Of a stretch of 58,998 nucleotides of DNA, positions 8,158 through 17,915 are shown in pieces; the stretch's first letter is position 1, and the number at the start of each line of letters is the position of its first letter. Below the pieces are notes generated by a model. That model was given only the letters and a program-made list of their open reading frames with translations, did not search any database and was not told where the DNA came from. This DNA comes from an uncultured Oscillospiraceae bacterium. GTDB lineage: Bacteria > Bacillota > Clostridia > Oscillospirales > Oscillospiraceae. The position numbers and the translations under genes are program-made. The stretch spans positions 1 through 58,998 of the forward strand of contig CAMVMU010000006.1 in the NCBI GenBank assembly GCA_947168655.1. Reading direction: 5' to 3'.

Positions 8158-8298
8158 CTACTCCCCCCGGTACTTGCGCCGGGTGGCCATGCCGCCCCGG
8201 ATGTGGCGCTGGGCCTTGTTCTCCTCCAATATCTCCTTGACCTGGCACCACAGCGGCCGGTTATAAAGCGGCAGCCGCTCGGACAGGTCCTTGTGTAC
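8158..8298 (-). pseudogene. spoIIID: spoIIID 3' exon, separated from its 5' exon by a 9.4-kb element
   Basis: Reading leftward from the core this codes VHKDLSERLPLYN ... HIRGGMATRRKYRGE and a TAG stop at 8158-8160. This is the second half of SpoIIID: recognition-helix end, the RLP segment and the basic IRGG-MAT-KY tail known from Bacillus and Clostridia. It has no start codon or RBS of its own. Its first codons continue exactly the reading frame of the fragment ending at 17739. The recombinase gene overlaps it in another frame (8261-8298). I call it interrupted rather than dead, because joining at the shared core restores a full-length protein. Confidence 0.9.
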
Positions 8299-9826
8299 GG
8301 TCGTCTGTTAGCAGAACGGTATCGTCCAGGCCCAGATCGCCCAGAATACAGAGGTAGATATCCACGTTCCCGTCGTGGTCCACCTCGATCCGGCGGACAA
8401 TTCTGCGGAGCTGGGCATTGGTCATCTGCCGGACATCGGCGATGCTCTCGATGCTGCGGAAGGTGTCGGACAGGATGGCCGAGAGCTGATCCCCCTTGGT
8501 GAGGTTCTGCGTGACGATTTGCAGCTCCCGCTCCAGCCGCTCCTTGTCCGCCTTGAGGTCGCTCAGCTTTTCGTTCAGCTCCGTGCGGGTGATCAGATCG
8601 TCGGTGTACATCTCCATGTACTTCTGACGGCTCTTCTGCACCTTGGCAAGCTGGGCGCGCAGCTCCTTTTCCGTGGCGGCGTTCTCATCCTGGGCACGGT
8701 ACTTTTTTTCAAAGGCTTGCACCAAATGCCGGGTCACCTGCTTCTTGTGGGACAGCACCTCCTGGAAGTAGCTCTGGATCACGTCGATCAGCTCGTCCTC
8801 GTCCACCGTCACGGCGTTGGGACAGCTGTCCGCGCCCTTGCCGTTGTGGCTGGAGCAGCACCAGCGGACGTAGGTGTTCTTGTAGGTCCGCACCGTCCGG
8901 CGGAAGGACCAGCCGCAGTCCTTGCACTTGATGAGCGTGGAGAACAGATACTGGTTGCTGTGTCGCTCCCTGTTCAGCTTGAAGTCGTCCCATCGGCTTC
9001 TCAGAATCTCCTGGGCGCGGTCGAACTCCCGCTGAGGGATGATCCGCAGATCGGGCCTGTCCACCACGAGCCACTCCTCCGCGTCCCTGTCGGTTCGCTG
9101 ACCGGTGAGGAAGTCCGACACCTCCTGCTTCCCGTTGATGACCTTGCCGGTGTAAAGCTCATTGGTCAGAATGCGGCCCACGGCGTTCTGGCTCCACCTG
9201 CAGTCCCGCTTGGTGTGGATGCCTCGCTGGTTGAGCATGTTGGCGATCTTGGTTTCACCGTATCCCTCGTCATTGTACCAGCGGTAGATCTGGCGGATGA
9301 CCTCCGCCTCCTGCCGGTTGACGGTCAGGTGGAAGAAGTCTCCTGCGGTTTTGTCATAGCCATAGACGATATTGGGCACCCGCCCCTTCTCGGCGTTCAG
9401 CTTCTTGCCGAACTTGACGCGCTTCGACATGTTGGCGCTCTCCTCCTGGGCGATGGCGGCCAGCATGGTCAGCACAAATTCGCTGTTGCCCATGCTGGTC
9501 ATGTTGGCCGTCAGGAACTGCACCTCGATACCCAGCGCCTTCAGCTTGCGCACGCTCTCCAGCAGATCCACCGTGTTGCGGGCGAAGCGGGACACGTCCT
9601 TCACCGCCACCATGTCAAAGAGGCCTCGCTGGGCGTCGGCCATCATCCGCTGGAACTCCTTGCGTTTTTTGATCTTGGTGCCGGAGATGCCCTCGTCGGC
9701 ATAGAGCCGCACCAGGTGATGACCGGCGCGGCCGGCGTATTCCTGAAAGAAGCTCTTCTGGGCTTCCAGACTGTTGAGCTGATCGGCCTTGTCCGTGGAC
9801 ACCCGACAGTATGCAGCGATGTTCAT
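8261..9826 (-). CDS. Large serine recombinase (SpoIVCA-like), likely excisionase of the spoIIID element
   Basis: 521 aa as read here. It has an N-terminal resolvase domain (IAAYCRVSTDKADQ with catalytic Ser, then DEGISGT, KDVSRFARN), a Recombinase domain, a zinc ribbon (KCKDCGWSF ... WCCSSH ... SCPNAV) and a coiled coil near residues 385-450. This is the architecture of SpoIVCA and phage integrases. The start is ATG at 9826, with GGAGGTGATC upstream; a longer reading frame lacks a better RBS. The last ten codons lie outside the element, in the spoIIID 3' exon. In the predicted excised circle the tail would instead read CGSNSLERFIWWVA and stop at 17694. Confidence 0.93.
   Translation of the reverse strand: MNIAAYCRVSTDKADQLNSLEAQKSFFQEYAGRAGHHLVRLYADEGISGTKIKKRKEFQRMMADAQRGLFDMVAVKDVSRFARNTVDLLESVRKLKALGIEVQFLTANMTSMGNSEFVLTMLAAIAQEESANMSKRVKFGKKLNAEKGRVPNIVYGYDKTAGDFFHLTVNRQEAEVIRQIYRWYNDEGYGETKIANMLNQRGIHTKRDCRWSQNAVGRILTNELYTGKVINGKQEVSDFLTGQRTDRDAEEWLVVDRPDLRIIPQREFDRAQEILRSRWDDFKLNRERHSNQYLFSTLIKCKDCGWSFRRTVRTYKNTYVRWCCSSHNGKGADSCPNAVTVDEDELIDVIQSYFQEVLSHKKQVTRHLVQAFEKKYRAQDENAATEKELRAQLAKVQKSRQKYMEMYTDDLITRTELNEKLSDLKADKERLERELQIVTQNLTKGDQLSAILSDTFRSIESIADVRQMTNAQLRRIVRRIEVDHDGNVDIYLCILGDLGLDDTVLLTDDRTQGPVRAAAAL
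8294..8298. other. attachment-site core, left end of the spoIIID element
   Basis: The core TGTAC is shared with 17739-17743, and similarity extends to TGTAC(G/C)GT. To its right, inside the element, is GGTCGTCTGT-TAGCAG. The inverted counterpart CTGTTA lies at a similar distance inside the other end. Such imperfect inverted arms are expected of a serine-recombinase attP. Confidence 0.75.
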
Positions 9827-9898
9827 CTGATCACCTCCGTTTGTATTTGCAGCACACACAATACCCGATCTCTTCCGGAATAGCCAGAGAAATATGTG

Positions 9899-9927
9899 CG
9901 GCTCCCTGCAGAAAAAGCAGGGAGCCG
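9899..9927. terminator. Hairpin between the small gene and the recombinase
   Basis: An 11-bp perfect stem (CGGCTCCCTGC) with a 7-nt loop lies 5 bp after the end of the 65-aa gene. The T-run is weak on both strands, so it may only partly terminate, or may set the ratio of recombinase mRNA. Confidence 0.5.
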
Positions 9928-9932
9928 TTTGG

Positions 9933-10130
9933 CTATGTAGCGCATGTTCTTATCCCTTCTTCTGACGGTCTGTCCTGTTTGTGTCCGTCGGACCGGCCCT
10001 GTATGGCGCGTCGGATCGCATCCTCCGCCCTGGGCTCATTTACTTCTGCGAAGAGCGTCAGAAGAAAATCGGCGGTCTCCTCTGCCGTGTTGGGATTGAA
10101 GAACCGGTAAGAAAGTTTCTTCTCTTTCAC
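9933..10130 (-). CDS. Small conserved protein encoded before the recombinase
   Basis: 65 aa, acidic and helical: YRFFNPNTAEETADFLL ... FAEVNEPRAEDAIRRAIQG. I recall similar short proteins next to recombinases in clostridial mobile elements, but no function is known to me. It starts with GTG at 10130 behind a weak GGGCGG-like site. It lies 106 bp before the recombinase and on the same strand, so it may be co-transcribed. A recombination directionality factor is one possible role; nothing in the sequence proves it. Confidence 0.55.
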   Translation of the reverse strand: MKEKKLSYRFFNPNTAEETADFLLTLFAEVNEPRAEDAIRRAIQGRSDGHKQDRPSEEGIRTCAT

Positions 10131-10363
10131 GATGGAGTCACCGCCCTTTCTGTTTTCAGCATATGAAGTTTGGCTGGCATATCATGCCACCGACTTTATT
10201 GCGTTTTTCGTCACTCCTCCTTTGTGTTACAGATACAGGCCTCGCAGGCCATGCCGGTTTTTCCGGCAGCTTCTATTGACTGTTCTCATTGTTTTCCTTT
10301 CCGCCTTGCGGCAATTCCTTTTTTACTTGTTCTGTTTCTTCTCATAGGAACCACTGCGGCCAC

Positions 10364-10383
10364 AAAGCACGACGTCGTGCTTT
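10364..10383. repeat. Perfect 20-bp palindrome
   Basis: AAAGCACGAC and its exact complement, followed by a T. It could be a protein-binding site or a loop-free hairpin. Confidence 0.6.
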
Positions 10384-10566
10384 TCCCTGCAATCACGCCG
10401 TTTTTGCCTGATGGCTTCCACCTACCTTCCCGAGCCTTCAAAACAGGGTGCAACCTTCCAAAATCGACGATCGAATCCCCGAAACCCTTGTGCGGTCGGC
10501 GTTGCCGGCCGCTGTGAATCGGAATGGGGTGCGACAGCAACCCCTTTCCTTTCTCCTGCTTGCTAA

Positions 10567-10580
10567 AACAACGCGTTGTT
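10567..10580. repeat. Perfect 14-bp palindrome
   Basis: AACAACGCGTTGTT, in the same gap as the 20-bp palindrome and 184 bp from it. Confidence 0.5.
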
Positions 10581-10780
10581 CTCAGCTGCTCCCGCTGCTT
10601 TTCGCTAGAATGCTCGGCTTGGAACAATCGTCTTTTCCGCCCCACGATCGCTCCAAGCCCTCTCCGGGGACGTGTTCCCGCCCCTCGTTTGGAAAAGCCC
10701 ACACGAGCCGTTCCGTGGCCAAACACGGGGCAATAACCGTCCCTCGCGGTGACGGTTAAACCGATCCCGATTCCGAACCG

Positions 10781-11836
10781 TCATAGCGCAACACAAGTGT
10801 TTGCAACGGTTTCCGCGTTTTGTGACGATTCGCGCTCCCCGCACCGTGAAACCGTCATATCGTCATAGTAGCTGTAATACCGCAGAAGAATCGTGCGCTG
10901 CTTCCCGGTGCGGGACGGCGTGAAGGACACGCCCATTCGCTGCAGTTCCTGCCGGTAGCGTCCGATCTTCCGGGTGAGAATGTTGGGCTGCATATCCAGA
11001 TCCAGTAGGTGAACCAGCTCAGAGGCCGTCCCTTCAAAGCTCCGATGCTCCCGCACATACGCCGCCACGTCACGGAGGGCTGTCTCGCTCTCCAGCGGAT
11101 CTGTCAGCGGTGTGTCGCATTTCATCAGCGTCCATTCCCCCAGCTCCTCGTCCCGTTCCAGCGTGAACGTCTTCTCCTCCATGTCCCTGCCGCGGACGTG
11201 GAGCTGCACGTCCACGTCGTTGGGATGCTCCTTGCAGAGGACGTAGCTGCTGTCCGCCGCGCCGATCAAGCCCGTGGTGCCGGAGATCATCATGTGGGGA
11301 TCGCCGGCTTCACGCTTTCGGAGATGGTGGACAAGGATCACTGCGATCTGATGCTCGTCCGCAATGCGCTTGAGCATACCCATGTCTTGATAGTCGTTGG
11401 CGTAGAGATTTCCGTCGCCGGTCCCGCCGCGCACCTTCTGCAGCGTGTCGATGATGATCAGGTTCGTGTCCCCGTGTTGGGTGAGGAAATCCTCCAGCTG
11501 TTCGCACAGACCGTCCGACAGAGACTGGGAGAAGGTGGCAAGATGCAGCTCCTCCGGCGGCTCGTCCGTCAGCTCGGAGATCCGCTGCTGCAGCCGGGCA
11601 TAGTTGTCCTCCAGGCAGAGGGAGAGGACCGTGCCCTGCTCCGTGCGCAAGCCCCAGAGCGGTGTGCCGGAGGCGACGGCCAGCGCCAGCTGCAGCAGCA
11701 GCCAGCTCTTGCCCACCTTCGGTGCTCCCGCAAAGACGTGCAGTCCTCTCGGCAGAAGTCCGTCCACCACAAATCGTGTTGGGGGAAGCCTCATGTTGTA
11801 GAGGTCCTTCGCGGTGATGGTTTCGATTTTTTCCAT
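10781..11836 (-). CDS. RepA-like AAA/RecA-fold ATPase
   Basis: 351 aa. Walker A GAPKVGKS is near residue 38. A Walker B-like LIIIDTLQ follows, then VHHLRK. The C-terminal part, beginning near SETALRDVAAYVREH, looks like a winged helix. This is the AAA_25/RepA layout of hexameric helicase-like ATPases in phages, plasmids and integrative elements. It probably acts on DNA during replication or maintenance of the excised element. The start at 11836 has AGGAGGAAACACAA before it. Its last about 25 residues (after YYDDMT) look unconserved and may be a read-through extension. Confidence 0.8.
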   Translation of the reverse strand: MEKIETITAKDLYNMRLPPTRFVVDGLLPRGLHVFAGAPKVGKSWLLLQLALAVASGTPLWGLRTEQGTVLSLCLEDNYARLQQRISELTDEPPEELHLATFSQSLSDGLCEQLEDFLTQHGDTNLIIIDTLQKVRGGTGDGNLYANDYQDMGMLKRIADEHQIAVILVHHLRKREAGDPHMMISGTTGLIGAADSSYVLCKEHPNDVDVQLHVRGRDMEEKTFTLERDEELGEWTLMKCDTPLTDPLESETALRDVAAYVREHRSFEGTASELVHLLDLDMQPNILTRKIGRYRQELQRMGVSFTPSRTGKQRTILLRYYSYYDDMTVSRCGERESSQNAETVANTCVAL

Positions 11837-11887
11837 TTGTGTTTCCTCCTCAAATTAGATTTGCTCTCAAAGGGTGGGAGCAGTATT

Positions 11888-12118
11888 CTATGTTGCAAAA
11901 AGCCATAATTCCGTTTTTTTCTCTCGGCCCCGACGGAACCGACAGGCGGAAAGAACCGTCTGTCGGATTAGGGTGGATGCGGAGGTCCCGACAGGATCTA
12001 TGCTGAGACTCTTTTCCCAGCAACCGGGATCATAGAAGCCATAGTGGGTATCCATTCCAACCCGCAACATACTTCTCACGCCCTTCCGGCGTGCTGCATT
12101 GCCTTGCAGAAGTATCAT
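11888..12118 (-). CDS. Uncharacterised small protein of the element
   Basis: 76 aa, not recognised. The start codon is well supported: ATG at 12118 is preceded by AGGAGAGGTGAACA. The product is basic with no membrane helix, and contains DTHYGFYDPGCWEKS and a basic FRRGREKK stretch. It lies 51 bp upstream of the RepA-like gene on the same strand. It could be a small regulator or a leader peptide. Confidence 0.4.
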   Translation of the reverse strand: MILLQGNAARRKGVRSMLRVGMDTHYGFYDPGCWEKSLSIDPVGTSASTLIRQTVLSACRFRRGREKKTELWLFAT

Positions 12119-12305
12119 TGTTCACCTCTCCTCTTGTCATGGCCAATCGACCCATACTGTTCACGGGTCGACCCGGCGTGTGATGTATCGCTCGTCCGCG
12201 TTTTGCGGAGTCCTGGCGCTCACATCCGGCAGCTTGTCCTTTCGGACAGAGGAGGGAGTTCCCTCGGCATCCAGACTATTCGATTGTCAAGGATCTGTGA
12301 GTGGT

Positions 12306-12460
12306 AAAAGATCCCCTCACTTGGTAGAGCACGGGAAAGGCCAAAAATACACCCTTTTGCATAAATTCATTTGTAAAATTTTTGTGCCCGGCCCTATTCG
12401 GGGGTCATCGGAAAAGATCCCCTCATGTGGTAGAGGTCGAAAAGGCAAAAAATACAAACA
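12306..12460. repeat. Two diverged about 50-bp direct repeats, 106-bp period
   Basis: Both copies begin AAAAGATCCCCTCA, continue with GGTAGAG, and end in a purine-rich AAGGC-AAAAATACA tract. Copy starts are 12306 and 12412. Their position upstream of a RepA-like gene suggests iterons or operators. Confidence 0.6.
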
Positions 12461-12554
12461 AATGCATCAAAAAAATGAACTTATTCGGATTTTTTCAATA
12501 AAGGCCTACTTCTGAGGCTGCGCCCGCCATTTGAGTGCGACCTCAGAACGCAAA

Positions 12555-12622
12555 AAAGCCGGTCCATACAGCTCTTGCGGCAGAGAAATAATCTCTTGCC
12601 TGAAGCTGTGTGGATCGGCTTT
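12555..12622 (-). terminator. Long intrinsic terminator of the DUF6809-type gene
   Basis: A 19-bp stem (AAAGCCGGTCCATACAGCT against its complement, 2 mismatches) encloses a 30-nt loop that can itself pair. On the minus strand it ends CGGCTTTTTT. Confidence 0.8.
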
Positions 12623-12651
12623 GGTTTCAAATTGATCCGGGTAAATCCCCA

Positions 12652-12939
12652 TTAATCATCAATGGAGGGGACATCCGTCCCCTCCATTGTCTCGTATGCA
12701 ATTCTTGCGCCCAGCCGGAAGCCGCGGCAAAACGCCTCGCATTCTTCGAGGTTGTGCAGTTCCCGCTGGTTGTCCCGAATCTTTTCGTAGATCGCTTTTG
12801 CTTCCTCTGACAGCAGCGGAATGAGTTTCTCCTCGTGCCGGAGGATATAGCCACCCAGCTTGCGGGCCTTGTCGTCTTGCCCGACGGGACGCACGTTAGG
12901 TGTCACGCTGCCATACCACAACTCTTCCAGTATCTTCAT
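12652..12939 (-). CDS. DUF6809-like small protein
   Basis: 95 aa. MKILEELWYGSVTPN at the start and ECEAFCRGFRLGARIAYE near the end match a family of small helical proteins common in clostridial chromosomes and mobile elements. Its function is unknown to me. ATG at 12939 has AAGGAGG at the right distance; the frame extends upstream but without an RBS. It stands alone, ending in a strong terminator. Confidence 0.7.
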   Translation of the reverse strand: MKILEELWYGSVTPNVRPVGQDDKARKLGGYILRHEEKLIPLLSEEAKAIYEKIRDNQRELHNLEECEAFCRGFRLGARIAYETMEGTDVPSIDD

Positions 12940-13034
12940 GGTATCGCCTCCTTCTTCAAGCACAGGACAATACCATGAACCAACCGGGAAGTCCAGCGGA
13001 AATCCGCAGAAAATTTTATAGACCATCGTGGTGA

Positions 13035-13559
13035 TCAGCGCAAAACGGCGTCCCGCAGCACCAGATACACCACCGTGCCGTTGTCCACCTGCTGCTGATA
13101 GGAGTCAAAGGTGCCCGAAACCGTGATCTCCTCGTCTAATGCCGGAAAGTCCTCCGGGTAGGACAAGTCGTCCGCCGGCTCAAACTCCAGGCCCTGGGCG
13201 CAGCACGCCGTGGCATCCTGTACGACACAGGCGTAATAGAGCTTGTCCCCATCCTCAAAGACGGTAAAGAAGCCCTTGATCCTGACGGTTTTGCCCATGT
13301 AAGAGTCGGGGCTGCAGATCATGTCGTAGATTTGGGCGTAGACCATGGTGCTGCTGAGCTGCGTCAGATCCAGGTCTACCCCCTCATCCTCATCGGAGGA
13401 GGTGTCCTCTGACGAGGGAATCTGCACGGCGGGTGCCCCGTCATCTGCCACGGACGTTTGCCCGGCGGACGTATCCTCCCCCGCTGAGGACGCTTTCGCA
13501 CCACAGGCGGTGAGGGTCAGCACCAGCAGGACGAGAAAAAGCGAAATCGTCTTTTTCAT
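13035..13559 (-). CDS. Predicted lipoprotein with OB-like domain, zinc-importer neighbour (1)
   Basis: 174 aa. A lipoprotein signal peptide ends in LTAC-GAK (lipobox). An acidic Ser/Asp/Glu-rich linker spans residues 25-60, and a small beta-rich domain follows (MGKTVRIKGFFTVFEDG ... VSGTFDSY). It shares the D-A-T-x-C-C-x4-E segment (DATACCAQGLEFEP) with the neighbouring lipoprotein, so the two are paralogues. It is the last gene of the zinc-type ABC operon, 13 bp after the previous gene. An extracellular metal-handling or chaperone role is inferred from the CC motif and the position only. Confidence 0.7.
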   Translation of the reverse strand: MKKTISLFLVLLVLTLTACGAKASSAGEDTSAGQTSVADDGAPAVQIPSSEDTSSDEDEGVDLDLTQLSSTMVYAQIYDMICSPDSYMGKTVRIKGFFTVFEDGDKLYYACVVQDATACCAQGLEFEPADDLSYPEDFPALDEEITVSGTFDSYQQQVDNGTVVYLVLRDAVLR

Positions 13560-13572
13560 AGCGTTGCCCCCG

Positions 13573-14283
13573 TTATCCCGCCGCCGTCACGGAGCAGCCG
13601 GTGAGCGTGCCTCCGGCCACCGTGCCCCGCAGGACGACCTGTGTCCCGATGGCGGGAGAGACATCATCGGAGGAGAACTCGATTTGCCAGGAGCCGTCAT
13701 AATACGGGTTTTCCAATGTACCGGGCCCGGCGATCCGCCCATAGGCGGCAAAGTCTTTGCCCTCAAAATATTCCGACCGATACAGAATGTTCAGCATCTG
13801 GACCCGCTCCAGCGTGCAGCTCATGGCACACATATCCAGCTCCGCGGTGGGGCCGGTGTAGATGGACTCCGTCTCCACGGCGGCGCTTTCGATCCAGTAG
13901 CCGTCCAGCGCGTCGTCACTGGCGGCAAAGGTGCCCCGGACGTTCACAAGGGACCCCACCGGCGGCAGAGTGGCCGGGTCCATCGGCACCAGCTCCCACT
14001 GCCAGTCGCAGCAGCGGGTGGCGTCCATATAGCCCCAGACATAGTAGCGTGTACGCGCGTTGAAGGCATCCTGCACGGCGGCGAGAACACCCCGCTTGAC
14101 CACGTCTTTCCCGGTCAGTTGCTGGCCGTAGTCGCCGTGGAACACGTTTTGATAGAGCACATATTCGTCCTGATTCATAATCTCCGGGACCGTATCGGTG
14201 GCGCCGTCCTGCCGGGAAGGCTGTCCGCCGCACCCGGCGCAGAGGATGACCAGCAGCAAGACCAGCGGCATGAGTTTTTTCAT
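13573..14283 (-). CDS. Predicted lipoprotein with OB-like domains, zinc-importer neighbour (2)
   Basis: 236 aa, with lipobox LCAGC at residues 14-18. The mature part appears to hold two related beta domains. The first contains DATRCCDWQWELVP and VNVRGTF; the second ends with TQVVLRGTVAGG. The CC segment matches that of the following lipoprotein. It begins 4 bp after the importer permease gene, so it is very likely co-translated with it. Function unknown; it may deliver or sense metal at the outer face of the membrane. Confidence 0.7.
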   Translation of the reverse strand: MKKLMPLVLLLVILCAGCGGQPSRQDGATDTVPEIMNQDEYVLYQNVFHGDYGQQLTGKDVVKRGVLAAVQDAFNARTRYYVWGYMDATRCCDWQWELVPMDPATLPPVGSLVNVRGTFAASDDALDGYWIESAAVETESIYTGPTAELDMCAMSCTLERVQMLNILYRSEYFEGKDFAAYGRIAGPGTLENPYYDGSWQIEFSSDDVSPAIGTQVVLRGTVAGGTLTGCSVTAAG

Positions 14284-14287
14284 GTGA

Positions 14288-15145
14288 TTACCCCCTTCCG
14301 CCCAAGGTGCGCAGCCGGGCGATGACAGTGAAAATGAGGAACGCGGCGATATCCACCGCCACGATGGTGGAGCCCACCGGGGTGCTGGCCAGAATAGAGA
14401 TCAAGATCCCCAGCAGGGCCGCGCACACCGACACGACGGCGGAGCAGACCGTGACGCTGCGGAAGCTGCGGAACAGGCGCATGGCGCACATAGCCGGGAA
14501 AATGATAAGGGCTGAGATCAGCAGCGAGCCCACCAGATTCATAGCCAGCACGATGATCACCGCGATCACTACGGCGATCAGCAGGTTGTAAGTTCCGGCG
14601 CAGGTGCCGGTGGCCCGGGCAAAATCCTCGTCGAAGGTGACGGCGAAGATCTTGTTGTAGAAGAAGAGGAAGATGGCCACCACAGCCACGGACAGTGCCA
14701 CACACAGCCAGACCTCCGTCTTCGTCAGCGTCAAGATGGAGGTGGAGCCGAACAGCGTGGAGCACACGTCGCCGGAGAGGTTGGCGGAGGTGGAAAACAG
14801 GTTCAGCAGCAGGTATCCGACAGCAAGGGCACCAACGGAGATCATGGCAATGGCGGCATCTCCCTTGATCTTCGTGTGCTGTCCCGTGCGCAGCAGCAGC
14901 ACGGCGCAGATCACCGTGACAGGCAGCACCAGCAGCATGTCATCCGTCAGATGCAGCACACCGGCGATGGCCATAGCGCCGAAGGCAACGTGGGACAGGC
15001 CGTCACCGATGAAGGAGAAGCGCTTGAGCACCAGGGTCACACCCAGCAGCGACGAGCACAGGGCGATGAGGACGCCCACGATCAGCGCGTAGCGCACGAA
15101 GGGGTACTGGAGATAGATCGTCAGTTTTTCCCAGATTGCGGTCAT
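14288..15145 (-). CDS. znuB: Zinc/manganese-type ABC importer permease
   Basis: 285 aa, about 8 hydrophobic helices, ABC-3 family. The conserved LKRFSFIGDGLSHVAFGAMAIAG sits near residues 40-62, and a second coupling-type segment holds SLLISALIIFPAMCAM. It imports a divalent metal with the ATPase and binding protein encoded just upstream. Its ATG overlaps the end of the ATPase gene by 4 bp (translational coupling). Zinc is the most likely metal because of the ZnuA-like partner; Mn cannot be excluded. Confidence 0.9.
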   Translation of the reverse strand: MTAIWEKLTIYLQYPFVRYALIVGVLIALCSSLLGVTLVLKRFSFIGDGLSHVAFGAMAIAGVLHLTDDMLLVLPVTVICAVLLLRTGQHTKIKGDAAIAMISVGALAVGYLLLNLFSTSANLSGDVCSTLFGSTSILTLTKTEVWLCVALSVAVVAIFLFFYNKIFAVTFDEDFARATGTCAGTYNLLIAVVIAVIIVLAMNLVGSLLISALIIFPAMCAMRLFRSFRSVTVCSAVVSVCAALLGILISILASTPVGSTIVAVDIAAFLIFTVIARLRTLGGRG

Positions 15146-15849
15146 TCCGCCTCACCCCCCTCTGTAAAACGCCTGGCCAACCCGCTGCGCAGATAGGCCT
15201 CCTTCGTCCCGAAGAATGTGGTCTCGCCGATGTGCAGAATATGGCTGGCGTAATGCAGGGCGGCGCCGACGTCGTGGGAGATCATGATGACGGTGATGCC
15301 CTGCTCGTGATTCAGCCTGCGGATCAGAGCATAAAGCTCTGCGGTGACCTTGGGGTCCAGGCCGGACACCGGCTCATCCAGAAACAAAAGACTGGATGTG
15401 GCACAAAGGGCACGGGCCAGCAGCACCCGCTGCTGCTGGCCGCCGGACAGATCCCGGTAGCAGCGGCGCAGCAGGGGCGCAAGCCCCAGGCTTTGTATGT
15501 TGTCCAGCGCCCGTTGCTTTTCCGCTTTCGTGTAGCAGGGCCGCATGCCGCAGCTGCCTTGACAGCCGGACAGCACCACCTCCCACACGGAGGCGGGGAA
15601 GTCCTTCTGGATCGCCGTCTGCTGAGGCAAGTAGCCGATCCCCTTGGCGTGGAGCCCGTCATCCATCCGGATCTCCCCGGAAACAGGCGGCTGAAGGCCC
15701 AGGACGGTGCGCATCAAGGTGCTTTTCCCCGATCCGTTTTCCCCCAGGATGCAGAGGTAGTCGCCCGCATGCACGGCGAAGGAGAGTCCGCTGAGGATCC
15801 TGCGCCCCTCGTAACCCAGAGCGAGGTCCTGACAGGTGATGAGTGCCAT
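15142..15849 (-). CDS. znuC: Zinc/manganese-type ABC importer ATPase
   Basis: 235 aa. Walker A GENGSGKST near residues 37-45, Q-loop LPQQ, signature LSGGQQQR, Walker B LLFLDEP and switch ISHD are all present, so it should be active. It energises the permease encoded next. It starts 14 bp after the binding-protein gene. The CxxxCGMRPC stretch in the helical subdomain is unusual but not diagnostic. Confidence 0.92.
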   Translation of the reverse strand: MALITCQDLALGYEGRRILSGLSFAVHAGDYLCILGENGSGKSTLMRTVLGLQPPVSGEIRMDDGLHAKGIGYLPQQTAIQKDFPASVWEVVLSGCQGSCGMRPCYTKAEKQRALDNIQSLGLAPLLRRCYRDLSGGQQQRVLLARALCATSSLLFLDEPVSGLDPKVTAELYALIRRLNHEQGITVIMISHDVGAALHYASHILHIGETTFFGTKEAYLRSGLARRFTEGGEAE

Positions 15850-15862
15850 GCCGATTGCCTCC

Positions 15863-16834
15863 TTACCGCAGCGCGTCCGTCAGGACGGCCAGATTGTCCT
15901 CCATGATGGTGAGATATGTGACGCCGCCGGCCACATCCTTGGCCGTGACAGACTGCATGGAGTCCAGCGTCAGAAGCGCCTGGTCGCCGCTTCGGGTATT
16001 CTCCCGGATGGTACGGGCGATGGAGCCGTCAGCGCTCTCGATCTGCAAAATGGCCTTGAGCCCCAGTTCATCCACCTTGTTCGCCAGAAAGACGATGGTC
16101 TCAAAGCTGGCCTCCGTCTCGGCGGAGCAGCCCACAAAGGCAGCATAATAGGTGAGTCCGTAGTCGTCAGTCAGATAGCGGAAGGGGAAACGGTCCCCGA
16201 ACAGGACGGTCTTGACCGCCGCGGCGTCCACAGCGGACTGATAGTCTGCGTCCAGCTTACTCAGCTTCTCGGCGTAGGCGGCGGCGTTGGCGGTGTAATC
16301 GGCGGCGTTGGCAGGATCTGCCCGCCCCAGCGCCTCAGCGATCCGGCTGCAGAGGACGGCGGCGCAGCGCAGGCTCAGCCACACGTGCTCGTCGTACTCC
16401 TCTTCCTCCTCGCCCTCTTCGCCGTGGTCGGCCTCCATGCCCTCTACCACTTCCTCCTCCTTGGCGGCGTCACCCAGGGCCTCCAGCAGGTTCACCACCA
16501 CCATGTCCTGATTGGTGGCCTCCTGCAGCGCATCCTCCACCCACTCGTCGGACTCGCCTCCCACGTAGATGAACACGTCGCAGGAGGCGATCTTCACCAT
16601 GTCGTCGGCCGTGGGCTGATAGCTGTGCAGATCCACGCCGCTGTCCAGCAGCATGGTGACCTCCGCGCTGTCAGCCCGTTCGCCCAGAATGTTCATGACC
16701 CAGTCGTATGCCGGGAAAATGGTGGTGACGATCTTCAGTTTCCCGCCGTCAGAGGCGGAGCCGGACCGTCCGCACGCGGCCAGCAGGCTCAGGAGCAGGC
16801 AGACGGCAAGGATAACAGGTACATATTTCTTCAT
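15863..16834 (-). CDS. znuA: Zinc-binding lipoprotein of the ABC importer
   Basis: 323 aa. The lipobox is LLAAC-G, and the cluster A-I fold begins with KIVTTIFPAYDWV. Probable metal ligands are the His of DLHSYQP and the His of EHVWLS. A loop rich in Glu/Asp/His precedes the second one (ADHGEEGEEEEEYDEH), typical of zinc rather than manganese binders. The third-ligand region reads FGDRFPFRYL, as in AdcA-like proteins. ATG at 16834 has TTGGAGG before it. It is the first gene of the five-gene importer unit and is preceded by a structured leader. Confidence 0.92.
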   Translation of the reverse strand: MKKYVPVILAVCLLLSLLAACGRSGSASDGGKLKIVTTIFPAYDWVMNILGERADSAEVTMLLDSGVDLHSYQPTADDMVKIASCDVFIYVGGESDEWVEDALQEATNQDMVVVNLLEALGDAAKEEEVVEGMEADHGEEGEEEEEYDEHVWLSLRCAAVLCSRIAEALGRADPANAADYTANAAAYAEKLSKLDADYQSAVDAAAVKTVLFGDRFPFRYLTDDYGLTYYAAFVGCSAETEASFETIVFLANKVDELGLKAILQIESADGSIARTIRENTRSGDQALLTLDSMQSVTAKDVAGGVTYLTIMEDNLAVLTDALR

Positions 16835-16881
16835 AATAATAGCCTCCAAACTTCATTGCGTCGAAAAATGGGTATAAAAAG

Positions 16882-16935
16882 ACAAGGGGCGGCATGGCCG
16901 AAAGAGCCTATCCGAATGGATAGACTACCCCTTGT
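16882..16935 (-). promoter_or_regulatory. Structured RNA / terminator-like element upstream of znuA
   Basis: On the minus strand an 8-bp closing stem ACAAGGGG/CCCCTTGT encloses two smaller hairpins (CTATCC-ATTC-GGATAG and CGGC-CAT-GCCG), then CTTTTTAT. It sits between the small Cys/His gene and znuA. It could be a plain terminator, or an attenuator controlling entry into the importer genes. Confidence 0.55.
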
Positions 16936-16946
16936 TATCGACGAAT

Positions 16947-17234
16947 TCAGTTTGAAAGCTTGACCTTCAGTGTGACAGGAGTAGACAGAAAGGACTCGTC
17001 TTCCCGGCGCTTCTCTCCGGTCAGAGCCAAGCTGCAGGCAAACAGGGTAAGAGCCAGCGCAGCCAGACAGGCTCCCGGCTGACGGAGCAGATCCTCGCAG
17101 GCGCTGATCTGTGCGCAAATGGAGCAGTTCTCGCCGCCACAGTCGTGATCGGCCTCCAGGACGACGTAGAGGGCGGAGAAGAACACGACGGCAGCCAACA
17201 GCGCAGCCAAACAGGCAAGCAGGCGCTTTTTCAT
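16947..17234 (-). CDS. Small membrane protein with HDCGGENCSIC motif, first gene of the zinc locus
   Basis: 95 aa. Two hydrophobic helices (residues 4-22 and about 52-70) are separated by an external segment EADHDCGGENCSICAQI, a likely metal-binding His/Cys cluster. I recall this pattern in small proteins near zinc transport genes of Firmicutes, without known function. The start is ATG at 17234 with AAAGGAG before it; the longer open frame upstream lacks an RBS and overlaps the promoter. It has the only clear promoter of the locus (17304-17332). A zinc sensor or carrier is a guess. Confidence 0.7.
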   Translation of the reverse strand: MKKRLLACLAALLAAVVFFSALYVVLEADHDCGGENCSICAQISACEDLLRQPGACLAALALTLFACSLALTGEKRREDESFLSTPVTLKVKLSN

Positions 17235-17303
17235 GCTCTCAGCTCCTTTCCTTATCCATGACGGCAGTCGGTCCCTTCGAGAAATGCGGATCGTTCGCAA
17301 ATT

Positions 17304-17332
17304 AAGATATACCGCCCGGGGGCATTTGTCAA
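17304..17332 (-). promoter_or_regulatory. Promoter of the zinc locus
   Basis: TTGACA (17327-17332) - 17 bp - TATCTT (17304-17309). Just downstream an imperfect dyad TTTGCG-N7-CGCATT could be a metal-regulator site (Zur-like), but it does not match a known box well. Confidence 0.7.
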
Positions 17333-17433
17333 GGCAGTGCCGGAATAAAGCGGTAAAGCGATCATCAGGGGACCTGAACAAATCCTCTATAAATGCGCCT
17401 AAGCGATCGGCAGCATCATAGAGCAGTATACAA

Positions 17434-17645
17434 GGGCAGAAGCCGCGGCTTCTGCCCTCAAGCTGTCGACAAAGTGTCGGCAGCTTGAGGGAGAATTCAG
17501 GAACATTCAAAATTGTTCCTGAATTCGCTTTGATTTAACGTGAAGAGGGGACTCCCATCCCCTCTTCACAATCTCCCCATGCGTGTCGGAACCTCTCCCG
17601 ATGGGTTTGTCAACGCTTTAAGGGCAGGAGCCGCGGCTCCTGCCC
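17434..17645. repeat. Cluster of five strong hairpins
   Basis: Perfect 24-bp palindromes lie at 17434-17457 and 17622-17645. They have the same layout, GGGCAG(A/G)AGCC-GGCT(T/C)CTGCCC (centre CG), and differ by a compensated base pair. Between them are stems at 17457-17489 (CTCAAGCTGTCGACA), 17493-17526 (GAATTCAGGAACA) and 17541-17566 (GAAGAGGGGA). The compensated change suggests selection for folding. Confidence 0.75.
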
Positions 17646-17738
17646 TTGAAAACTGCCCATACTTCCAAACCACAACATCTTGCGTTACACAGCTCACGCC
17701 ACCCACCAGATGAACCGTTCCAAACTGTTACTACCGCA

Positions 17739-17743
17739 TGTAC
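17739..17743. other. attachment-site core, right end of the spoIIID element
   Basis: TGTAC, the partner of 8294-8298. Immediately outside (plus strand CGTGGATTTGCTGACG) is SpoIIID coding sequence for GVSKST. Confidence 0.75.
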
Positions 17744-17851
17744 CGTGGATTTGCTGACGCCGAACTTCTTGGCGGCGGCCCGCACGGTCGTGCGGTTTTC
17801 TATCAGGTAAAGGGCCAGCTGCTCGGCCCGCTGCTCCAGATTCTCTTTGAT
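17739..17851 (-). pseudogene. spoIIID: spoIIID 5' exon with an ATC in place of the start codon
   Basis: Leftward translation gives (I)KENLEQRAEQLALYLIEN then RTTVRAAAKKFGVSKSTVH, the N-terminal half and helix-turn-helix of SpoIIID. At the crossover the frame leaves the gene. The codon where family members have ATG-AAA-GAG is ATC-AAA-GAG (17851-17849). GGGGAG precedes it by 9 bp, and an in-frame TAG lies two codons upstream. So either initiation occurs at AUC (rare, weak), or at a CTG a few codons later, or the gene is damaged. Together with 8158-8298 it makes 82 residues, close to the usual 80-95. Confidence 0.88.
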
Positions 17852-17915
17852 AGCCTACCACTCCCCACATGTGCTTTGACGGTACATGTATATGCGGGGA
17901 GCAAGGCCGATAGAA

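Follow-up and report, generated by a model that had tools for sequence, protein, structure and literature searches.

The window, a stretch of 58,998 nucleotides from an uncultured Oscillospiraceae bacterium (GenBank assembly GCA_947168655.1, contig CAMVMU010000006.1), contains the mother-cell sporulation gene spoIIID in two pieces on either side of an inserted element, and all features described below lie on its minus strand. The 5' half (17851-17739) comprises the first 37 codons and matches positions 1-41 of PF12116 (E 2.5e-12), ending at a core shared with the 3' half (8295-8158), which starts with the shared CA, extends through the stop codon and matches positions 33-80 of the same family (E 3.7e-18). 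The element measures 9445 bp (8294-17738), and its ends have GTACA in common as a direct repeat (left core 17743-17739, crossover CA 17740-17739; right core 8298-8294, crossover CA 8295-8294). Rejoining at this CA, which belongs to the His codon of STV-H-KD in the helix-turn-helix of SpoIIID, yields an open SpoIIID of 82 codons without a stop (IKENLEQ...STVHKDLSERL...RKYRGE). A sequence-only reading of this DNA had described a minus-strand spoIIID split into N- and C-halves, a 5-bp core at 8294-8298 and 17739-17743, in-frame rebuilding of the gene by joining the cores, and a skin-like element of about 9.4 kb; the family matches to both pieces, the core coordinates, the rebuilt frame and the measured length all bear this out, and spoIIID as the target of such an element is strongly supported by its recurrence over many genomes. 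The two halves are the sole PF12116 matches in the window's genome, a metagenome-assembled genome (MAG) of 1.7 Mb in 78 contigs that is 76% complete.

The empty site is found in relatives. G309 (locus L288), the closest relative that was found, has an uninterrupted spoIIID, and its alignment with the window stops at the core; the N-side match is 91.7% identical, the C-side match 89.4%, and the two overlap by 8 nt at the shared core. Over the 83 codons compared, the rejoined window gene differs from it by 16 synonymous and 5 amino-acid changes. All nine same-genus genomes examined (those of the sample, the genus holding further genomes) contain one full-length, uninterrupted spoIIID match each, and the window matches them on either side of the core and breaks there, in agreement with the insertion proposed by the sequence-only reading. 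The N-half in the window has no ATG, GTG or TTG start, and ATC (17851-17849) stands in the start position. That the insertion damaged a start codon is excluded, since ATC is already present in seven of the nine intact same-genus genes (the others having ATT and ATG, one each), and five of the nine likewise contain no ATG, GTG or TTG in that part of the gene. In other genera a start codon is present at the corresponding spoIIID position, in contrast to the ATC or ATT of the window's genus (L281-L289).

Recurrence of the split was followed in a sample of 400 genomes of the same GTDB family, including the window's (one genome per species, many of them MAGs), of which 326 contain PF12116. The pieces were located in 48 selected genomes whose matches were partial or double, and 22 of these, including the window's, had both halves with readable junctions, corresponding to about 7% (22/326) of the spoIIID-bearing genomes. 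In all 22 the same His codon is broken, CA constitutes the letters common to every pair of ends, and the halves rejoin in frame, the crossover having been placed at CA throughout. A single 5-bp match could arise by chance alone, and this explanation of the ends is excluded, as 22 of 22 genomes break at one codon. In three further family genomes (G165, G276 and G285), the right end alone is readable. In a sample of the class, PF12116 is present in 285 of 393 genomes (completeness of at least 90%, the window's MAG being displayed in addition), and 12 genomes outside the family, among 18 followed up, hold both spoIIID halves; ends were read in eight of these and all fit the same CA, with the proviso that in G772 the likeness extends beyond CA and does not pin the point. 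An assembly or binning artefact, a thought raised by the origin of the window from an incomplete MAG, has a negligible probability and is contradicted by isolates with the same junction, which is found in isolates and MAGs of many projects, often with the N-half, recombinase and C-half on a single contig. Extra N-half copies away from the main locus were also seen (L080 in G015, L069 in G058, L083 in G262, L086 in G278); those in G015, G262 and G278 have the main copy's upstream region, and those in G058 and G278 run into a different sequence, GGTGTCATAATAAGAATA, just after the core, perhaps belonging to a second element type.

The 14 family elements read end to end range from 2.6 to 29 kb, and those of G182 and G368 extend over 35 and 52 kb, each on a single contig. 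Cargo and size thus vary (2.6 to 52 kb), unlike a constant core: each complete element read has a recombinase of the large serine type (LSR), attachment (att) sites that are imperfect palindromes, and a small protein of no described family.

The LSR gene of the window (8261-9826) abuts the C-half, placing the element's own recombinase beside one of its ends. Its product contains Resolvase, Recombinase and Zn_ribbon_recom (zinc ribbon) domains, which together with attP inverted repeats about a central dinucleotide identify it as a large serine recombinase; the recombinase that the sequence-only reading placed at this end therefore stands by its domains, whereas the accompanying label 'SpoIVCA type' is loose. 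The enzyme is part of alignment A1, whose 21 LSRs share an AYCRVST start. Relatives of the window-type LSR were taken as the best 80 from a scan of named genomes, and the spoIIID C-half directly follows the recombinase in 76 of these 80 (75 by profile, and L150, cut by a contig end, by eye), or in 69 of 73 when counted independently of the seven loci (L103, L104, L107, L115, L118, L131, L175) that are contigs already in A1. The four not counted are L166, at a contig edge, and L105, L111 and L129, which lie elsewhere. The N-half falls inside the fetched flank at 13 of the 80 loci. Cultured carriers include Blautia glucerasea, B. schinkii, B. massiliensis, Extibacter muris, Pseudoflavonifractor phocaeensis, Flavonifractor sp. 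An82, Agathobaculum butyriciproducens and Angelakisella massiliensis. A profile of the LSR matched 33 of the 400 family genomes at E <=1e-150; nine weaker matches in these 400 genomes, at 510-605 bits, include none at spoIIID, and LSR relatives among viral contigs (80 loci) include none with a spoIIID half. At the L111 locus, from Christensenella sp. Marseille-P2438, the LSR is nearly identical to that of Angelakisella massiliensis and no spoIIID half is present, which suggests a secondary site used in another host. The LSR frames of G038 (L065:2683) and G254 (L077) appear to start with ATA, as against ATG in most others.

In a tree of these recombinases (100 rows, built by a quick method, with uncertain long branches), hosts are intermixed, and near-identical LSRs of three Blautia species and Extibacter share a branch with those of Oscillospiraceae and Agathobaculum. 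The near identity among the three Blautia species, with a close LSR in Extibacter, points to recent transfer, as would be expected of an ordinary mobile element that leaves growing cells at low frequency, the excised fraction of the population maintaining spoIIID function without any developmental control. Mixed alleles in one MAG (G211, below) would also fit such behaviour. We regard this explanation as quite improbable, however, as the target has stayed unchanged through deep LSR divergence, three recombinases among the end-read genomes outside the family being just 31-34% identical to the window's, and as the sigma-E-type promoter found family-wide before the small-protein gene would be unexpected.

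The att sites were reconstructed from both ends of 33 elements. The resulting attP has arms near AACCGTTCT and AGAACGGTT (a consensus that omits four of the 33, namely G015, G254, L171 and L179), placed symmetrically about CA, with inverted symmetry at 12-24 of 26 positions against a chance expectation of 6.5. In the window, the left arm GGAACGGTT (17713-17721) is the inverted partner of the right arm ACCGTTCTG (8312-8320), which lies within the recombinase gene. A pattern search for attP in viral contigs and 51 genomes returned no match and is uninformative, since the pattern demanded AT where many attP have TT. The attP site falls within the 3' end of the recombinase gene, and the last codons of the window LSR come from spoIIID in another frame. 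Among 19 pairs in which the LSR frame reaches the core (elsewhere it ends earlier, e.g. 31-33 nt before the core in G038, G044 and G058), 15 frames in the integrated state stop right at the core with a TAA supplied by the spoIIID codons CAT-AA, and four, including the window's, read on beyond it. When read across the circle, 14 of the 19 extend into a tail with ERxxW; for the window LSR, the predicted tail is DDRTCGSNSLERFIWWVA in the circular form and DDRTQGPVRAAAAL in the integrated one. Conservation of this tail may partly reflect the attP arm and not the protein.

Upstream of the recombinase, the window encodes a 65-residue protein (9933-10130) belonging to a conserved set of about 52-77 residues with the consensus KLNYRFHNPNxxExTADYLLKxLIEANxxKVERAI. 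A homologue is present in all 26 distinct complete elements (14 from the family and 12 others, after removal of L118, which equals G337), 16 of the 26 being independent, as 10 of the 14 family elements seeded the profile; the weakest matches are those of G033 (E 1.8e-7) and G044 (E 5.3e-5). Among the 80 named loci it lies on the LSR strand in 66; where over 2.5 kb of sequence precedes the LSR (60 loci), it does so in 56. It matches no Pfam, NCBIfam or PHROG family. A profile search against solved structures gave 14 matches, none convincing, and no similarity to the known LSR directionality factors SprB/YotN of SPbeta, no SPbeta directionality-factor chain being retrieved although YokA-YotN chains were in the library. 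The protein is modelled as a two-helix hairpin with a mean predicted local distance difference test (pLDDT) value of 77. On account of its position and near-universality, it is a candidate recombination directionality factor (RDF).

The regions upstream of the small-protein genes, 67 reduced to 45 non-redundant, were scored against the B. subtilis sigma-E consensus (maximum 15). CATA starts 41-50 nt before the small-protein start in 36 of the 45 regions (median over other windows of 10 nt: 2) and is usually found 14 nt downstream of boxes resembling TACTATT, GACTATT, GGATATT or TAATATT. The mean sigma-E score is 11.3, as against 10.2 in shuffles (standard deviation of the mean 0.11), 10.6 upstream of the LSRs and 10.1 upstream of other genes, and scores of at least 12 are reached by 17/45 small-protein regions, 31/400 other genes and 7/60 LSR regions. 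The upstream regions of 42 intact spoIIID genes, serving as a positive control, have a mean of 11.8, with 26 of 42 at 12 or above. In the window, spoIIID itself has a promoter candidate read by eye, TTCTATC-N14-CATATACA (17885-17915), of the type also seen before intact family copies of the gene. Family-wide, the small-protein gene thus appears to have a conserved sigma-E-type promoter similar to the one before spoIIID, with a poor fit in the window.

Taken together, the locus probably belongs to a widespread family of skin-like gene-intervening elements that use spoIIID as their attachment site, and developmental excision would rebuild the gene. In this mechanism, sigma-E in the sporulating mother cell would transcribe the small protein from its sigma-E-type promoter, and the small protein, acting as RDF, would turn the LSR towards attL x attR excision. 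Excision would rebuild spoIIID, whose own promoter is of sigma-E type, and SpoIIID could then act on later mother-cell genes, including sigK. The forespore would keep the element together with its cargo (here a metal-ion transporter), since it is the mother cell that dies, and insertion therefore need not cost the host its spores. The insertion would add a delay at the DNA level ahead of the appearance of SpoIIID. Regulated excision had already been proposed in the sequence-only reading, and the part of that proposal that gains ground does so indirectly, through the small protein, the family-wide promoter, the intact halves and the retention of spoIVA in 21 of 22 carriers; less favourable are the poor promoter of the window and the fact that no excision product was seen.

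Several observations weigh against developmental excision of such an element. Excision itself is a prediction from genome sequences, and a second spoIIID elsewhere is possible, since the MAG is only 76% complete. The best small-protein promoter of the window, GCATGAT-N15-CATATGCT (10158-10187), is a weak candidate that scores 11/15, about the level of shuffles, and its CATA lies at -35, outside the family range of -50 to -41, as one of nine exceptions; with a promoter both weak and off-position, the case for the window rests on the family. The window attP is also modest, with 14 of 26 positions inverted-symmetric (binomial P 0.0015). Some LSRs of the clade lie away from spoIIID (L105, L111, L129 and G110); the favourable count, in which 24 of the 25 LSR matches above 740 bits lie at a split spoIIID (the exception being G110), is weakened by the fact that 21 of the 25 are query rows, which leaves an independent part of 3/4. 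In G254 the LSR lies at the opposite element end, and the small-protein gene of G033 runs on the other strand, close to the left end. MAG G211 contains both an intact-gene contig (from about codon 8) and an element contig; the two agree over 97 nt up to the core and then diverge, so that integrated and empty alleles coexist. Excision would account for this and would favour the main reading, but a mixture of two strains could do so as well. Indications that the halves are maintained are likewise qualified: the C-halves extend 45-59 codons beyond the core, compared with 44-57 in intact spoIIID, a range biased by the required profile match near the end, which strongly shortened copies would escape, and drawn from a set of 112 that counts some sites in more than one locus and is not a number of genomes. 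Ratios of nonsynonymous to synonymous substitution (dN/dS) of 0.31 for C-halves and 0.29 for N-halves, against 0.28 and 0.21 in intact genes, mix divergence before and after insertion and are not decisive.

In two genomes of another family (G611 and G671), the C-half is open and the sole N-terminal match carries three in-frame TAA codons; these N-terminal copies look decayed, possibly after insertion, which also speaks against regulated excision there. They are compatible with permanent inactivation, i.e. with an LSR that merely uses a conserved gene as attB, so that spoIIID is lost and the carriers sporulate poorly or not at all. The absence of a spoIIID match in 74 of the 400 family genomes (incomplete MAGs included) indicates that loss of the gene may be tolerated, and no excision was seen in the genomes compared. 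Permanent inactivation is nevertheless unlikely, given that the halves are open and of normal length and rejoin in frame in 22 of 22 genomes, that a mother-cell-type promoter precedes the small protein family-wide, and that all split genomes but G353 (21 of 22, the window's among them) keep spoIVA; among 21 comparison genomes, spoIVA is present in 15 of 16 with intact spoIIID and in 2 of 5 without any spoIIID.

SpoIIID is a regulator upstream of sigK. With spoIIID itself interrupted, the excision proposed here could not depend on SpoIIID, and in at least four of the 22 carriers (G150, G254, G029 and G368) sigK is split as well, which would require two excisions in succession. A more speculative and doubtful extension is a mother-cell excision cascade in gut Clostridia (sigma-E, small protein, spoIIID and, with the help of SpoIIID, sigK), combined with a latch in the LSR tail that senses the enzyme's own state: integration usually ends the LSR at the core and the circle adds the ERxxW tail, which might bias the direction of recombination.

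The anatomy of the element appears to match that of characterised gene-intervening elements, as far as the cited accounts describe them. Interrupted sporulation genes in these accounts include sigK, spsM, spoVFB, spoVR, gerE and yabG (PMC10747680; PMC4191935; PMC5595907), and a literature search, in which most subscription journals and preprints lay outside the coverage, returned no title or abstract start naming spoIIID as the target of an intervening element. In the Clostridioides difficile skin element, as outlined in its report, the LSR lies directly upstream of the 3' moiety of sigK and a small protein, CD1234, is encoded by the element (PMC5025042). The spoIIID elements share the LSR beside the 3' part, the small element protein and a mother-cell transcription-factor gene as target; unlike C. 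difficile skin (PMC5025042), they target spoIIID and not sigK and could not be controlled by SpoIIID itself. The comparison with the skin recombinase CD1231 and with CD1234 is one of description. The gin element in gerE of Bacillus cereus ATCC10987 is described as a non-phage element with the LSR GirC and the accessory protein GirX, for which excision during sporulation was shown (PMC5595907). Like gin, the elements reported here hit a very short regulator gene, encode an LSR and a candidate accessory protein, and have att inverted repeats about a central dinucleotide (PMC5595907). By contrast, gin is presented as a single type of element that carries three recombinase genes and occurs in strains of the B. 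cereus group (PMC5595907), while the spoIIID elements occur in many genera with one LSR and a small protein in complete elements, the small protein being likened to GirX by description. The SPbeta prophage in spsM, with SprA and SprB, is accompanied in its report by vfbin in spoVFB and vrin in spoVR (PMC4191935). In SPbeta, as is proposed for the spoIIID elements, the RDF gene has a promoter for a mother-cell sigma factor; SPbeta differs in being a large active phage in a structural gene (PMC4191935). The yin element in yabG of Clostridium botulinum, described in one strain as prophage-like and temporally excised, likewise lies within a clostridial sporulation gene, but a different one (PMC10747680).

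Programmed excision from sporulation genes was thus previously represented, in these reports, by few examples, which came from Bacillus, Geobacillus, C. difficile and C. botulinum. The elements reported here form one family that recurs in about 7% of the sampled spoIIID-bearing genomes of one bacterial family and in several other families, cultured gut species included. They offer many natural pairs of LSR and small protein, together with a case, open to direct test, in which DNA rearrangement by excision may serve commensals as a developmental switch during spore formation. In addition, spoIIID interrupted in this way could be missed by spore-gene annotation and by genome-based prediction of sporulation.

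The remaining genes of the window element are cargo or cargo-like. In order of rising position, a RepA/DnaB-like AAA ATPase (AAA_25; 10781-11836) is followed by a DUF6809 protein (12652-13026), two secreted or lipoprotein-like open reading frames (ORFs) of 174 and 236 residues (13035-14283), and a zinc/manganese-type ATP-binding cassette transporter (14288-16849) of which all three parts are present (permease, ATPase and ZnuA-like binding protein), with possible use to the host. A 187-residue ORF without a convincing family (16947-17510) lies nearest the left end.

Other genes were seen to be interrupted in the same genomes. In G150, G254, G029 and G368 (L300-L307), the sigK-like gene is split near residue 110-119, and the LSR abutting its 3' part is of another type, with a different start, IYSRKSKFTGKGES. 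In G337, where spoIIID is also split, spoIVA lies in two same-strand parts about 252 kb apart (L277, L278; C20:236830-489769), with holin-like and lysozyme-like ORFs (by eye) after the first part and a different LSR of 644 residues directly before the second, so that spoIVA apparently holds a very large prophage-like element. The sister LSRs matching A1 at 510-605 bits (L290-L298: G366, G087, G393, G029, G284, G307, G020, G066, G202) are followed, in at least seven of nine cases (not apparent for G284), by the C-terminal portion of a protein that is conserved, rich in Cys and about 290 residues long; the four such portions tested gave no Pfam or NCBIfam match. Longer open copies of this protein are present in relatives and in the window's genome (G000:C1:14038-14385), and its gene is likely to be another interrupted gene.

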